From positions 1 through 27,332 of the IMG/VR virus record IMGVR_UViG_3300025655_000232: DNA of 27,332 nucleotides; one strand, given 5' to 3'. Made by a program: the position numbers and the translations under genes. The DNA is from a virus. Shown in pieces: positions 777 through 5,396 of this stretch. Positions within the stretch are counted from its first letter, which is position 1; each line of letters opens with the position of its first letter. The notes below the pieces were generated by a model. The model had not been told where the DNA came from. It was given only the letters and a program-made list of their open reading frames with translations, and searched no databases.

Positions 777-1529
777 CTATAAATTCAAAGATTTTTTTGT
801 TTGTTCTTGAACTTCAGGTTTAGCTTGTATCTCACCTTTACCTACAGAATCTGCAAAAGATTTAGCCATGTCATAGATAGCTTTATCAGTGACAGGTCCT
901 ACTTTTGTTACATCCCAACCAAACCATGTTCCTTTGTCGTTAGACATCTGAACAGTAGATAGTTGATAAATGTGGCTGTAAGTTGGCGGAGTAAACAAAC
1001 CATTTTTACCCTGCATTTTTATACCCAACATCATTGAGTTCCATTTTCTACTAACTTTTAATTGAGTAGACTTCATAGAAATCAAAGCTGTTTCTGGGTT
1101 ATCACCAACGATTAATACAAAGTGACTAGCTGTATTATCAAGATAGTTTCCATTTGGTAATCTATCTTTATAGTCTTTACCTCTAGTTGTTTGACTTACA
1201 ATGTCACTATCTGCATCGTGAATTGCAACAGGTGCACCTGTACTGGTACCTCTGTCTTGCCATTCAATGTACTGTCGTTTGTAATGACATGGTACAACTT
1301 GTATAGTGTCATACAATGCATTAGTTACGGTATTTATTATTTTACCTGGCTCTGCACCCTCGACGTACTTACCATCTCTTTTGTTTACCTCTGGAGATAG
1401 TTGACCCAAAATTTTTAAGAATGGTAACGCAAGATCTTCTTGCGATATATTCTGGGCTCCTTGTTGTGCATCTGCTTCCATATCAAATGTAGCTAATGCA
1501 CCATTCTTTTTTTCTGTTACTTGGTTCAT
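777..1529 (-). CDS. Conserved phage replication-module protein, possible ssDNA-binding protein
   Basis: This 250-residue protein has no signal peptide or membrane segment. The N-terminal region contains LALPFLKILGQLSPEVNKR (residues 33-51), followed by a PGKIINTVTN stretch. I recognise this combination from many marine phage proteins encoded between primase and helicase genes, some labelled as putative single-stranded-DNA-binding proteins. The middle is beta-rich and aromatic (QYIEW, HFVLIV, TWFGWDV), compatible with an OB-like fold. The C-terminus is lysine/glutamate-mixed rather than the acidic tip of classical SSB or T7 gp2.5. It lies 2 nt downstream of the gene at 1532-2083 and upstream of the primase. 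DNA-binding is inferred from position and recall only. Confidence 0.5.
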   Translation of the reverse strand: MNQVTEKKNGALATFDMEADAQQGAQNISQEDLALPFLKILGQLSPEVNKRDGKYVEGAEPGKIINTVTNALYDTIQVVPCHYKRQYIEWQDRGTSTGAPVAIHDADSDIVSQTTRGKDYKDRLPNGNYLDNTASHFVLIVGDNPETALISMKSTQLKVSRKWNSMMLGIKMQGKNGLFTPPTYSHIYQLSTVQMSNDKGTWFGWDVTKVGPVTDKAIYDMAKSFADSVGKGEIQAKPEVQEQTKKSLNL

Positions 1530-1531
1530 GT

Positions 1532-2083
1532 TTATTTGTTCCTTTTTATTGTTGTCTTATTCTCCGAGAAAACCCCGAAGATTTCCGTTGGCATTTCTTT
1601 TCCTGCCTCAATACGCTCACGGACTAACGCTTTTAGAGTCATGGGTTCAACCTTCATCTTTTGTGTCGGTTGAAACCCACTGCTCTTTGCAAGTTCGGCA
1701 TAATCAGCCGCCTTGTTATCTTCGTTACGACCAAACGATACGGATATCTCATTTTTGATTATATCGCCTAAGCCATTTTCACGAAGCCAGTTAAACGCCG
1801 ATTCTTTATTTGCTTCTGTTATAGTAGCACGATACGACGTTGAAACTTTAAGATGTGATCCATCTTGAAGTTTTAATTCTGCTAAACCCATTTCGGACAT
1901 CATGGTAGGTATTACCTCACCTGATATACGTTGGTATTCTTTTTTTAAGTCTTTTATAGTAGATTCACTTGCTTCTATTCTAGAATGTAGAGCTTCTAAT
2001 GTTTCTACTTGATCTGCAAGAGACTGAATATTTTCAGTTTTACTCATTGCATCTTGTTGGTCTTTTTCAAAATCAATTGTCAT
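1532..2083 (-). CDS. Conserved phage protein with N-terminal coiled coil, function unknown
   Basis: The protein has 183 residues. Residues about 15-60 are rich in Glu, Leu, Ile and Lys with heptad-like spacing, suggesting a coiled coil. The rest carries a block familiar from many phage genomes (AFNWLRENGLGDIIKNEISV, then FGRNEDNKAADYAELAKSSG, then TLKALVRERIEAG). I recall this family as a companion of replication and recombination genes but know no established function. The start is supported by GGAG five to six bases upstream of the ATG. It overlaps the end of the 2073-2462 gene by 11 nt and precedes the 777-1529 gene by 2 nt, so the three form one operon. The coding DNA around 1560-1800 is somewhat more GC-rich than neighbouring genes. 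Confidence 0.6.
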   Translation of the reverse strand: MTIDFEKDQQDAMSKTENIQSLADQVETLEALHSRIEASESTIKDLKKEYQRISGEVIPTMMSEMGLAELKLQDGSHLKVSTSYRATITEANKESAFNWLRENGLGDIIKNEISVSFGRNEDNKAADYAELAKSSGFQPTQKMKVEPMTLKALVRERIEAGKEMPTEIFGVFSENKTTIKRNK

Positions 2084-2462
2084 CTATTTCTCCTTTCTCG
2101 TATAAATTAATGTCAATCGGGTAGTATTTTCTTTCTTGCTTATCCCACTTTAATAAATTGTATTTGCCATTTGTAATATCAGATACAATTGAACATGCAA
2201 CACCTATAATTGCAGGATCGCCTGTAAGTAGTAAATAATCTCCTTGCTTAAAATCTTTTAAACCTTTTCTTAATTTAAAAATTAAAGGACCTGGAGAAAA
2301 AATCATTTGAGAAAACTCTGGCAATAAAAATTTAAATTTACCATAACTAGATGCACCTATAATATTTATTTTAGGATTACCTGCTTGTGTACCCGCTATT
2401 TCTTGTATGACGTACACAGTTGGTTTACTTCCAATGACATTTTTTTCATTTATTACTTTCAT
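2073..2462 (-). CDS. Hypothetical phage protein, first gene of minus-strand replication operon
   Basis: The reading frame can start at 2480 (135 residues), but I prefer the in-frame ATG at 2462 (129 residues, beginning MKVINEKNVIG). The 2480 ATG lies inside the spacer of a strong-looking promoter whose predicted transcript begins close to 2463, which would make the mRNA leaderless or nearly so. The protein is soluble, beta-rich and basic in the middle (FKLRKGLKDFKQGDYLLLTG), with an acidic C-terminus (EKGEIDDN). I do not recognise its family; small barrel-type nucleic-acid-binding proteins look like this, but that is only a resemblance. It overlaps the next gene by 11 nt. Confidence 0.55.
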   Translation of the reverse strand: MKVINEKNVIGSKPTVYVIQEIAGTQAGNPKINIIGASSYGKFKFLLPEFSQMIFSPGPLIFKLRKGLKDFKQGDYLLLTGDPAIIGVACSIVSDITNGKYNLLKWDKQERKYYPIDINLYEKGEIDDN

Positions 2463-2464
2463 GC

Positions 2465-2493
2465 TTGACAATATAACCATGTAATACTATATG
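2465..2493 (+). promoter_or_regulatory. Sigma70-like promoter for the helicase/carbamoyltransferase island
   Basis: A perfect -35 hexamer TTGACA (2465-2470) is followed after 17 nt by TATATG (2488-2493, four of six consensus bases). The predicted transcription start is near 2500, giving a leader of only about 9 nt before the helicase ATG at 2509. The elements interlock with a minus-strand promoter in the same 35 bp. Confidence 0.6.
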
Positions 2494-2497
2494 TCAA
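2470..2497 (-). promoter_or_regulatory. Sigma70-like promoter for the minus-strand replication operon
   Basis: On the minus strand a perfect TTGACA (plus 2492-2497) is followed after 16 nt by TATATT (plus 2470-2475, five of six consensus bases). The predicted start is near 2463, at the preferred ATG at 2462. The 7-bp inverted repeat CTTGACA/TGTCAAG (2464-2470 and 2492-2498) makes this site nearly symmetric with the plus-strand promoter, and each -10 overlaps the other's -35. Confidence 0.6.
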
Positions 2498-2508
2498 GTT
2501 AGAAAGTT

Positions 2509-3939
2509 ATGAATTATAAATTTAAAACAAAACCATACGCGCATCAATTAACTGCGTTAGAAAAATCCTGGAATAAAGAAACCTATGCATATTTTATGGA
2601 AATGGGTACAGGTAAAACAAAAGTGTTAATTGATAACATGGCAATGTTATATGACAAAGGTAAAATTGATGGTGCATTAATTGTTGCTCCTAAAGGTGTA
2701 ATTAAAACTTGGTACGAACAAGAACTACCTACACATTTACCAACACACATTGAAAATGTGTCTGTATTGTGGCAACCTAATATAACAAAAACACAACAAG
2801 AAAAACTAGAGTCATTGTTTGAAATAGAAACAGCTTTACATATTTTAGTTATGAATGTTGAAGCTTTTAGTACAGATAAAGGTATGAAATTTGCAGCTAA
2901 ATTTTTAAATTCACATAAAGTTTTAATGGCTATTGATGAATCTACAACAATTAAAACACCTACAGCAAAACGAACTAAAAATATTATTGGTCTTGGTAAG
3001 TCTGCGAAATACAGACGTATCATGACTGGATCTCCGATTACAAAAAATCCTTTAGATTTATATACACAATGCGAGTTCCTTGATCCGTATTTATTAAACC
3101 ATGCTTCATACTATTCTTTTCGTAATAGATATGCAGAAATGAAAACTATGCACGTACGTGGTCGATCAATACAAGTTGTGCACGCGTTTCAAAATCTTGC
3201 AGAACTATCAGACAAAGTAAAAGGTTTTTCTTACAGAGTATTAAAAGAAGATTGTTTAGATTTACCACCAAAAATTTTTACTAAACGTTATGTCACGTTA
3301 ACACCAGATCAAAAAAAGATTTATCAACAAATGAAAAAAGAAGCTATGGCTATATTAAATGGTAAAGTAACTTCTACCATAACTGTATTGACTCAATTAA
3401 TGCGATTACATCAAATAACTTGTGGTCATTTTACTGCTGATGATGGGTCCACGCAGTCTGTTGAAAGTAATAGATTAAATGAATTAATGTCTGTTCTTGA
3501 AGAAACAGAGGGCAAAGCTATTATTTGGGCTAACTATCAATTAAGTGTAGGTGAGATTATACAAAGAATAATTAAAGAATATGGTGAAGATTCTTATGTT
3601 CATTATTATGGTTTAACTTCACAAGAAGATAGACAAGACTTTATTCGTAAGTTTCAAAACGATCCTAAGTGTAGGTTTTTAATTGGAACACCACAAACAG
3701 GTGGATATGGTATTACACTTACACAGGCCAACACTGTAATTTATTATTCTAATAGTTATGATTTAGAAAAAAGATTACAATCAGAAGACCGAGCCCACAG
3801 AATAGGACAGACAAAGTCAGTAACATATGTAGATATTATAGCAGAAGATACAGTTGATGAAAAAATTGTAAAAGCATTACGGAATAAAATTAATATAGCA
3901 TCTGAAGTATTAGGTGAAGATTTAAAAGAATGGATTTAA
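2509..3939 (+). CDS. SNF2-family DNA helicase/translocase
   Basis: This 476-residue superfamily 2 ATPase has both RecA-like lobes. The first lobe carries Walker A MGTGKT (residues 32-37), motif Ia-like IVAPKGVIKTW, motif II DEST (143-146, in place of the commoner DEAH) and motif III TGSP (173-176). The second carries motif V QTGGYGITLTQA (396-407) and motif VI QSEDRAHRIGQ (424-434), the signature of SNF2 proteins. The size matches compact phage members, which lack the accessory domains of chromatin remodellers. Such proteins move on double-stranded DNA using ATP; the phage role is probably in replication or recombination, consistent with the adjacent replication operon. It starts the plus-strand island and ends 1 nt before the carbamoyltransferase gene. 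Family call is firm; exact role is not. Confidence 0.92.
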   Translation: MNYKFKTKPYAHQLTALEKSWNKETYAYFMEMGTGKTKVLIDNMAMLYDKGKIDGALIVAPKGVIKTWYEQELPTHLPTHIENVSVLWQPNITKTQQEKLESLFEIETALHILVMNVEAFSTDKGMKFAAKFLNSHKVLMAIDESTTIKTPTAKRTKNIIGLGKSAKYRRIMTGSPITKNPLDLYTQCEFLDPYLLNHASYYSFRNRYAEMKTMHVRGRSIQVVHAFQNLAELSDKVKGFSYRVLKEDCLDLPPKIFTKRYVTLTPDQKKIYQQMKKEAMAILNGKVTSTITVLTQLMRLHQITCGHFTADDGSTQSVESNRLNELMSVLEETEGKAIIWANYQLSVGEIIQRIIKEYGEDSYVHYYGLTSQEDRQDFIRKFQNDPKCRFLIGTPQTGGYGITLTQANTVIYYSNSYDLEKRLQSEDRAHRIGQTKSVTYVDIIAEDTVDEKIVKALRNKINIASEVLGEDLKEWI

Positions 3940-3940
3940 A

Positions 3941-4888
3941 ATGAAAATTTTAGGAATTAATATATCTCATCATCCCTCAATATGTATATATGAAGATAAA
4001 AAAATTCATAAATTTTATAATGAAGAAAGATTTACTCTTAGAAAAAATTGTCCACCAGAAACTTATCATTTTAAGTTATATCAATCTATACTTCATCATG
4101 TAAATTTTAAACCAGACCTTGTTTGTTATGCATCATTTCAAAGATCACGTGATGATTTTAAAGATAAAGATGTTATAAAAATATTACAAAATCAATTAGA
4201 AAATCCAATTTATTATTTTAATGATAAGAATCACCACATATATCATGCTTTGTGTGGTAAATACTTTTCTAATTTTAAGGAAGCTGTTTGTATAGTCGTT
4301 GATGGGGGTGGCGCTAGCACTCACAGACCTCCTTTTGACGAAGTTCAATCAGTATACCATGTTACCGACACCTCTATAACTCCTATGTATAAATATAGCA
4401 CTTTGTTTAGAAGTGTTTTAGAAGTCGTTGGTATTGATCAACTTAATAAAATTAAAAAAGATTTAAATTTTGAATATAGAAGTTTTATAGGAGGATATGA
4501 ACAAGTTTTTTCTTCTCAAGAAAAAGGAGGTTTAACTTTTGATTCGGGATCTACAGCATGTGGTTTTAAATCAGGACACGATGCCGGTAAATTAATGGGT
4601 CTATCATCTTATGCCTATTCAGATAAAAAATATAACATTGATTATGAAAAAGTTAAAATAGCAAAAGATACTCAAGAGATTGGATTTAATGAAACTTGTG
4701 AATTAATAGATAGGTTTAAATTTAAAAGTAAAAATATTATATTATCTGGTGGATGTGCTTTAAATTGTTCTAACAATTTTAAATTTGTAAAAAAATATCC
4801 TGATTTAAATTTTTTTGTTGACCCCATTCCAAACGATAATGGAACAGCCATAGGAGCTTGTATATATTATGATATTTATAGAAAATAA
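3941..4888 (+). CDS. Carbamoyltransferase (NodU/CmcH family), N-terminal Kae1-like domain
   Basis: The 315 residues match the N-terminal catalytic half of O-carbamoyltransferases, which transfer a carbamoyl group from carbamoyl phosphate through a carbamoyl-adenylate. Visible family features are the opening ILGINISHHPSICIYEDKKI with NEER, the metal-binding type HHIYHA (residues 98-103), VVDGGG (119-124), GHDAGKLMGLSSY, LSGGCALNC, and NDNGTAIGA with Asp299 near the end. The frame then stops at 4886-4888, exactly at the domain boundary, and the C-terminal domain follows in the +1 frame. ATG is 1 nt after the helicase stop, so the two are co-transcribed. The DNA is very AT-rich (26 G/C in 120 nt counted at 3961-4080). 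The substrate is unknown; a modified nucleobase, glycan or small molecule are all possible. Confidence 0.85.
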   Translation: MKILGINISHHPSICIYEDKKIHKFYNEERFTLRKNCPPETYHFKLYQSILHHVNFKPDLVCYASFQRSRDDFKDKDVIKILQNQLENPIYYFNDKNHHIYHALCGKYFSNFKEAVCIVVDGGGASTHRPPFDEVQSVYHVTDTSITPMYKYSTLFRSVLEVVGIDQLNKIKKDLNFEYRSFIGGYEQVFSSQEKGGLTFDSGSTACGFKSGHDAGKLMGLSSYAYSDKKYNIDYEKVKIAKDTQEIGFNETCELIDRFKFKSKNIILSGGCALNCSNNFKFVKKYPDLNFFVDPIPNDNGTAIGACIYYDIYRK

Positions 4889-5396
4889 AAATGAAGCTGT
4901 AGAAGTGCTTTTACAACAAAAACCTCTTGTCATATACCAGGGGTATAGTGAATGGGGGCCAAGAGCTTTAGGTAATAGATCAATATTATTTGATCCTAGA
5001 AATCCAAATGCAAAAGATATTGTAAACTCTTTTAAAAAAAGAGAATGGTGGAGACCATTAGCCGGAACAGTTTTATTAGAATATGCCAATGAATATTTTG
5101 ATTTAGCAACTTTAAAAGAAAGCCCTTACATGTCTTTTGCAATTGATGCTCGACAAAAAGCAATTGATGAAGTCCCTTCTATAGTGCATGTTGACAATAC
5201 TTGTAGAATTCAAACATTAAAAAGAAAAGATAATCCTAATTACTATGACTTAATAAATTGTTTTTATAATCAAACAAAAGTCCCTATGCTTCTTAATACA
5301 TCTTTTAATTTAGCTGGTTTACCTATTGTTGAAAATGATCTTTTTTTAAACTTTACGATTAATAATTCTGAATTTGAGTATGTATACACACCTTAA
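4869..5396 (+). CDS. Carbamoyltransferase, C-terminal domain as a separate ORF
   Basis: The 175 residues match the C-terminal YrdC-like half of NodU-type carbamoyltransferases: QGYSEWGPRALGNRSIL (residues 24-40), FDPRNPNAK, REWWRPLAG, then LLNTSFNLAGLPIVEN near the end. This half normally forms the carbamoyl-adenylate intermediate. The ORF begins at an ATG 20 nt inside the end of the upstream half and in a different frame. Together the halves add up to about 490 residues, close to a complete enzyme, so they can work as two subunits. A single-base sequencing or mutational frameshift in the A-rich overlap is the alternative. The stop shares a TTAA with the convergent peptidase gene. Confidence 0.83.
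   Translation: MIFIENKNEAVEVLLQQKPLVIYQGYSEWGPRALGNRSILFDPRNPNAKDIVNSFKKREWWRPLAGTVLLEYANEYFDLATLKESPYMSFAIDARQKAIDEVPSIVHVDNTCRIQTLKRKDNPNYYDLINCFYNQTKVPMLLNTSFNLAGLPIVENDLFLNFTINNSEFEYVYTP

Follow-up and report, generated by a model that had tools for sequence, protein, structure and literature searches.

A conserved, interlocked element that probably serves as a bidirectional promoter for host RNA polymerase in HTVC023P-type pelagiphages

In HTVC023P-type pelagiphages, a short, nearly symmetric element at the junction of two divergent gene units very probably acts, in our assessment, as a compact promoter that the host's housekeeping RNA polymerase (sigma-70 type) uses in both directions. 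We analyzed it in a viral record of 27,332 bases, hereafter the window, which comes from a phage related to those infecting the ocean bacterium SAR11 and has the HTVC023P-type pelagiphages HTVC027P and 023Pt_psg01 as its nearest isolates. HTVC027P encodes no RNA polymerase and depends on that of its host throughout infection (PMC12753301). The word promoter is absent from both the genome survey (PMC9599517) and the infection transcriptome (PMC12753301) of this phage group. A conserved promoter for the host polymerase, with exact boxes and at the head of the replication operon, would be a clear control point in an abundant group of ocean phages.

The element is the 35-bp inverted repeat CTTGACA-N21-TGTCAAG, with 7-bp arms, at positions 2464-2498 of the window (CTTGACAatataaccatgtaatactataTGTCAAG). 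On the plus strand, the rightward -35 box TTGACA (2465-2470) is separated by a 17-nt spacer from the -10 box TATATG (2488-2493), with a predicted +1 near 2500; on the minus strand, the leftward -35 box TTGACA (2492-2497) is separated by a 16-nt spacer from the -10 box TATATT (2470-2475), with a predicted +1 near 2463. The repeat and both of its -35 boxes are kept in relatives. Each strand carries near-consensus hexamers with a spacer in the 16-18 nt range of sigma-70 promoters, the two -10 boxes are separate, and the predicted divergent starts are ~37 bp apart. A scan of the first 14 kb of the window for sigma-70-like sites returned the leftward promoter as the top site, with 11/12 consensus matches. 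The repeat, its two TTGACA boxes and the two spacers had all been described in the initial annotation and are confirmed; both conservation and the geometry of the boxes, described below, lend strong support to its proposal of a divergent promoter at this site.

Rightward, the promoter would drive a unit whose first gene encodes an SNF2-type DNA helicase (2509-3939, plus strand; phrog_62, PF00176/PF00271). Leftward, it would drive a replication operon led by a Pam3 gp32-like protein, the homologue of HTVC027P gp01 (2073-2462, minus strand; PF23992, phrog_5888), followed by a second gene (1532-2083, minus strand; PF23984, phrog_2378) and a third (777-1529, minus strand; PF23977, phrog_2402). The left side of the window thus comprises gp01-, gp02- and gp03-like genes, and in HTVC027P the primase, helicase and DNA polymerase A come after the counterparts gp01-gp03. 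The deposited record of HTVC027P runs from gp01 to the helicase, which places the junction at its two ends. The genes on both sides look like genes of DNA metabolism. Downstream of the window's helicase is a Nol-like carbamoyltransferase (3941-5396, plus strand), which we considered as a constant partner of the helicase and rejected in this role: of the 80 closest loci, L003 alone has one, a locus from practically the same phage as the window, and the gene is cargo beside the helicase. It is split into two ORFs (3941-4888 and 4869-5396) with an overlap of 20 nt; their matches cover positions 1-319 and 359-521 in a family 528 positions long, and either a true fission or a frameshift may have caused the split.

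The helicase ATG lies at 2509, giving a predicted 9-nt leader (TAGAAAGTT; 2500-2508, plus strand), and the ATG of the left gene lies at 2462, giving a predicted leader of 0-1 nt. The longest left ORF would begin at 2480, inside the promoter; we rejected this start in favor of 2462, which is more likely because the ATG beside the box is the one common to the relatives. Assuming a +1 at seven nt past the -10 box, the predicted leader of the left gene has a median of 0-1 nt in the window's clade and of 13 and 16 nt in two other clades, whereas for the right gene the corresponding ranges are 9-23 nt and about 15-26 nt. Consequently, of the earlier suggestion that both transcripts are near-leaderless, the part concerning the left gene stands as a prediction for the window's clade, and does not extend to the sister clades (13-16 nt) or to the right gene. 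A purine-rich AGAAAG, possibly a partial Shine-Dalgarno sequence, is conserved in the right-gene leaders of the relatives.

Within the window alone, the pairing of the two hexamers is weak evidence and not decisive: one TTGACA-N10-30-TGTCAA pair was found where 0.11 were expected, and 11/100 shuffled windows also hold one. TTGACA as such is rarer than expected (15 occurrences versus 26.5). We therefore turned to the relatives, using three sets of loci fetched by helicase similarity alone and not by the element. A first scan of these 229 IMG/VR loci found 147 with the interlocked arrangement, 75 with a layout in which both directions share one -10 box, and 7 with neither. Three of these 7 loci end too early, and in the remaining four the element lies at a greater distance upstream, so that no testable locus in the three sets is without it. 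In total, a bidirectional promoter is recognizable at the junction in 226/226 loci with enough upstream sequence: the interlocked inverted repeat, TTGAC[AT]-N21 to N26-[AT]GTCAA, in 149, and the shared -10 layout, confined to the HTVC027P-like clade, in 77. Many loci are near-identical, and the distinct interlocked elements number 96. The check for loss of the element in close relatives, which the initial annotation had proposed, hence points to retention. Two hexamers brought together by accident in AT-rich DNA, a pairing that the window shuffles by themselves might allow, would not be kept in every testable relative of three sets, mostly with both -10 boxes in register; this conservation rules chance out for practical purposes, and the element is very probably a real two-way promoter. 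Outside the three sets, HTVC023P (46% helicase identity) and phage DSL-LC04 have no recognizable element at this place.

DNA or a small gene lies between the promoter and the helicase in nine loci (L064, L072, L037, L164, L171, L193, L234, L246 and L247), all of which retain the element further upstream. In the three that were mapped (L064, L072 and L037), it adjoins the gp01-like gene despite the insert. For L064 and L072 we considered whether the inserted sequence holds an RNA element, and Rfam gave no match for either.

The spacing of the boxes among the relatives bears directly on what the inverted repeat represents. A near-perfect repeat with arms of 7 bp between divergent genes is also what one would expect of an operator, where each TTGACA would be a half-site for a dimeric regulator, from the phage or the host, that controls the two genes, and the initial annotation had suggested that the repeat could be a repressor site. 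However, the distance between the half-sites is not fixed, as such a dimeric operator would have it: spacings of N21, N22, N24, N25 and N26 are seen, and parsimony on the helicase tree yields at least 10 changes of spacing class in the window's clade, with the starred branches forcing 4-5, a count that recombination between helicase and promoter could inflate. Repeated 4-bp changes would turn the half-sites of an operator to different faces of the helix. What stays fixed is the distance of each -10 box from its own -35 box. Among the 96 distinct elements, a TATA lies 16-18 nt from its own TTGACA on the right in 90, on the left in 82 and on both sides in 76, as against 7.6, 7.4 and 0.6 expected when the spacers are shuffled. 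In N21 elements the near TATA is 0-1 nt from a given box and the far one 16-17 nt; in N25 elements the former distance grows to about 4-5 nt and the latter remains 16-17 nt, which amounts to a 4-bp shift of the whole leftward promoter. By this comparison of sequences, the two promoters appear to slide past each other as units, and the inner TATA tracks the far TTGACA rather than the near one. Across 13 related records, TTGACA-N16-18-TATA was counted 69 times and the reversed pattern 9 times, both counts including homologous copies.

Certain features count against a promoter. Many -10 boxes (TATATG, TATATA) are without the final T of the consensus, and 14/96 elements, largely from the 023Pt_psg01-like clade, combine a weak left-pointing -10 with a retained -35; for some members the placement of the -10 carries an uncertainty of up to 2 nt, an example being TATAAT at N19 in that same clade. 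A promoter also offers no ready reason for the pull toward N21 and N25, the spacings of most interlocked elements, with N23 not seen. Retention of the right box with a weak -10 of its own in part of the 023Pt_psg01-like clade would suit an operator, as would a spacing of exactly N25 in 119/147 interlocked elements. Nevertheless, the arms match the sigma-70 -35 consensus, and in the HTVC027P-like clade the boxes are 39 bp apart around a shared -10. A sliding spacing with a fixed distance to the own -10 box fits a pair of host sigma-70 promoters and argues against a repressor site of fixed spacing; we accordingly consider an operator improbable, and the repressor site is not needed to account for the repeat.

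The bidirectional promoter takes a second form in the HTVC027P-like clade, where the junction reads TTGACT-N17-TATATA-N16-AGTAAA. Here a palindromic -10 box is common to both directions and the -35-like boxes lie outside it, the leftward one, TTTACT, being weak; the predicted starts are about 19 bp apart. Of 78 loci in this set, 75 matched the shared -10 layout at once and 2 more did so further upstream, the box positions having formed part of the search pattern, while the remaining locus, L181, lies at the base of the clade and has the interlocked form. We had earlier taken HTVC027P to have lost one promoter, since TGTCAA is missing, and dropped this reading once the clade showed the shared -10 layout. 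It is conceivable, though we lean against it, that the phage group kept two-way transcription at one orthologous junction while swapping two promoter designs and sliding the units. If so, selection would have acted on bidirectionality from a single footprint, which could hold two replication units at a fixed ratio or keep the noise between them low, and not on a particular sequence.

With opposite-strand promoters occupying the same 35-40 bp, the host holoenzyme would bind alternately in the two directions, one at a time. Both transcripts would then arise in turn from the same site, one for the helicase unit rightward and one for the replication operon leftward, resulting in joint, coordinated expression of two units of DNA metabolism. 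The mutually exclusive binding is deduced from the overlap of the predicted footprints; promoter activity, start sites, one-at-a-time occupancy and co-expression rather than a switch are inferred. The initial annotation had taken the overlap of each -10 with the opposing -35 as a switch between the two units. In favor of such a choice by mutual exclusion of polymerases, the two footprints must overlap, and at E. coli bidirectional promoters one direction can be repressed when the opposite one is strongly activated (PMC12825309). A switch would, however, need strong competition. The overlap of hexamers is found in only about 25/149 interlocked loci, most relatives being N25 and free of it. Basal transcription at five E. 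coli bidirectional promoters was too low for competition to be more than negligible (PMC12825309), although the exact TTGACA boxes make competition possible in these phages. Moreover, with genes of apparent DNA metabolism on both sides, a choice between the sides has no clear benefit. Thus, a promoter that doubles as a switch appears unlikely to us, and we favor coordinated expression of the two units.

Among known systems, the closest are the bacterial bidirectional promoters of Warman, Grainger and coworkers (PMC12825309, PMC10268837), which combine, as is proposed for the element, a short sequence, divergent sigma-70 transcription and mutually exclusive binding. That class is defined by starts 7-25 bp apart (PMC12825309, PMC10268837), with 18 bp as the commonest distance in E. 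coli (PMC12825309), and the shared -10 layout has been described for its E. coli members (PMC12825309, PMC10268837). The HTVC027P-like clade alone fits this definition of a shared or reciprocally overlapping -10 with starts in that range. In contrast, the window's clade is interlocked, does not share its -10, has predicted starts about 33-37 bp apart and carries two exact consensus -35 boxes, so the window falls outside that class. Separate overlapping divergent promoters, which are opposite-strand pairs with overlapping footprints between divergent genes, resemble the element in these respects; unlike them, it is near-symmetric, has no recognized regulator gene adjacent to it, and persists throughout a phage group even as its spacing slides. 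The element would be a conserved, unusual variant of bidirectional promoters, and its ~130 distinct versions in two designs (96 interlocked and 36 with a shared -10) offer a natural series for studying how such promoters balance their two directions.

Related phages have a second interlocked divergent promoter, which separates the terminase small subunit from a short variable gene (G001:C1:20505, G003:C1:46641-46676 and L269-L348), with 28 bp between the start codons and up to 12/12 consensus matches. Like the element described here, the copy at G001:20505 has an interlocked TTGACA/TGTCAA pair, at N22, with the start on either side nearly touching its box; unlike in the element described here, its spacer is also strongly conserved in the matches found, a conservation that the search pattern itself required. 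The ATG lies 1-4 nt from the box in 114/120 contigs, and hence both sides are predicted to be leaderless. Separately, G001:C1:22921-22939 holds a perfect palindrome, CTTGACAAT-CCT-ATTGTCAAG, with two outward-reading promoters whose -35 boxes are adjacent. Several TTGACA promoters of these phages (G001, G003) have the motif ATCCTA/TAGGAT in their spacers, where it could be bound by a regulator or reflect a preferred spacer sequence.
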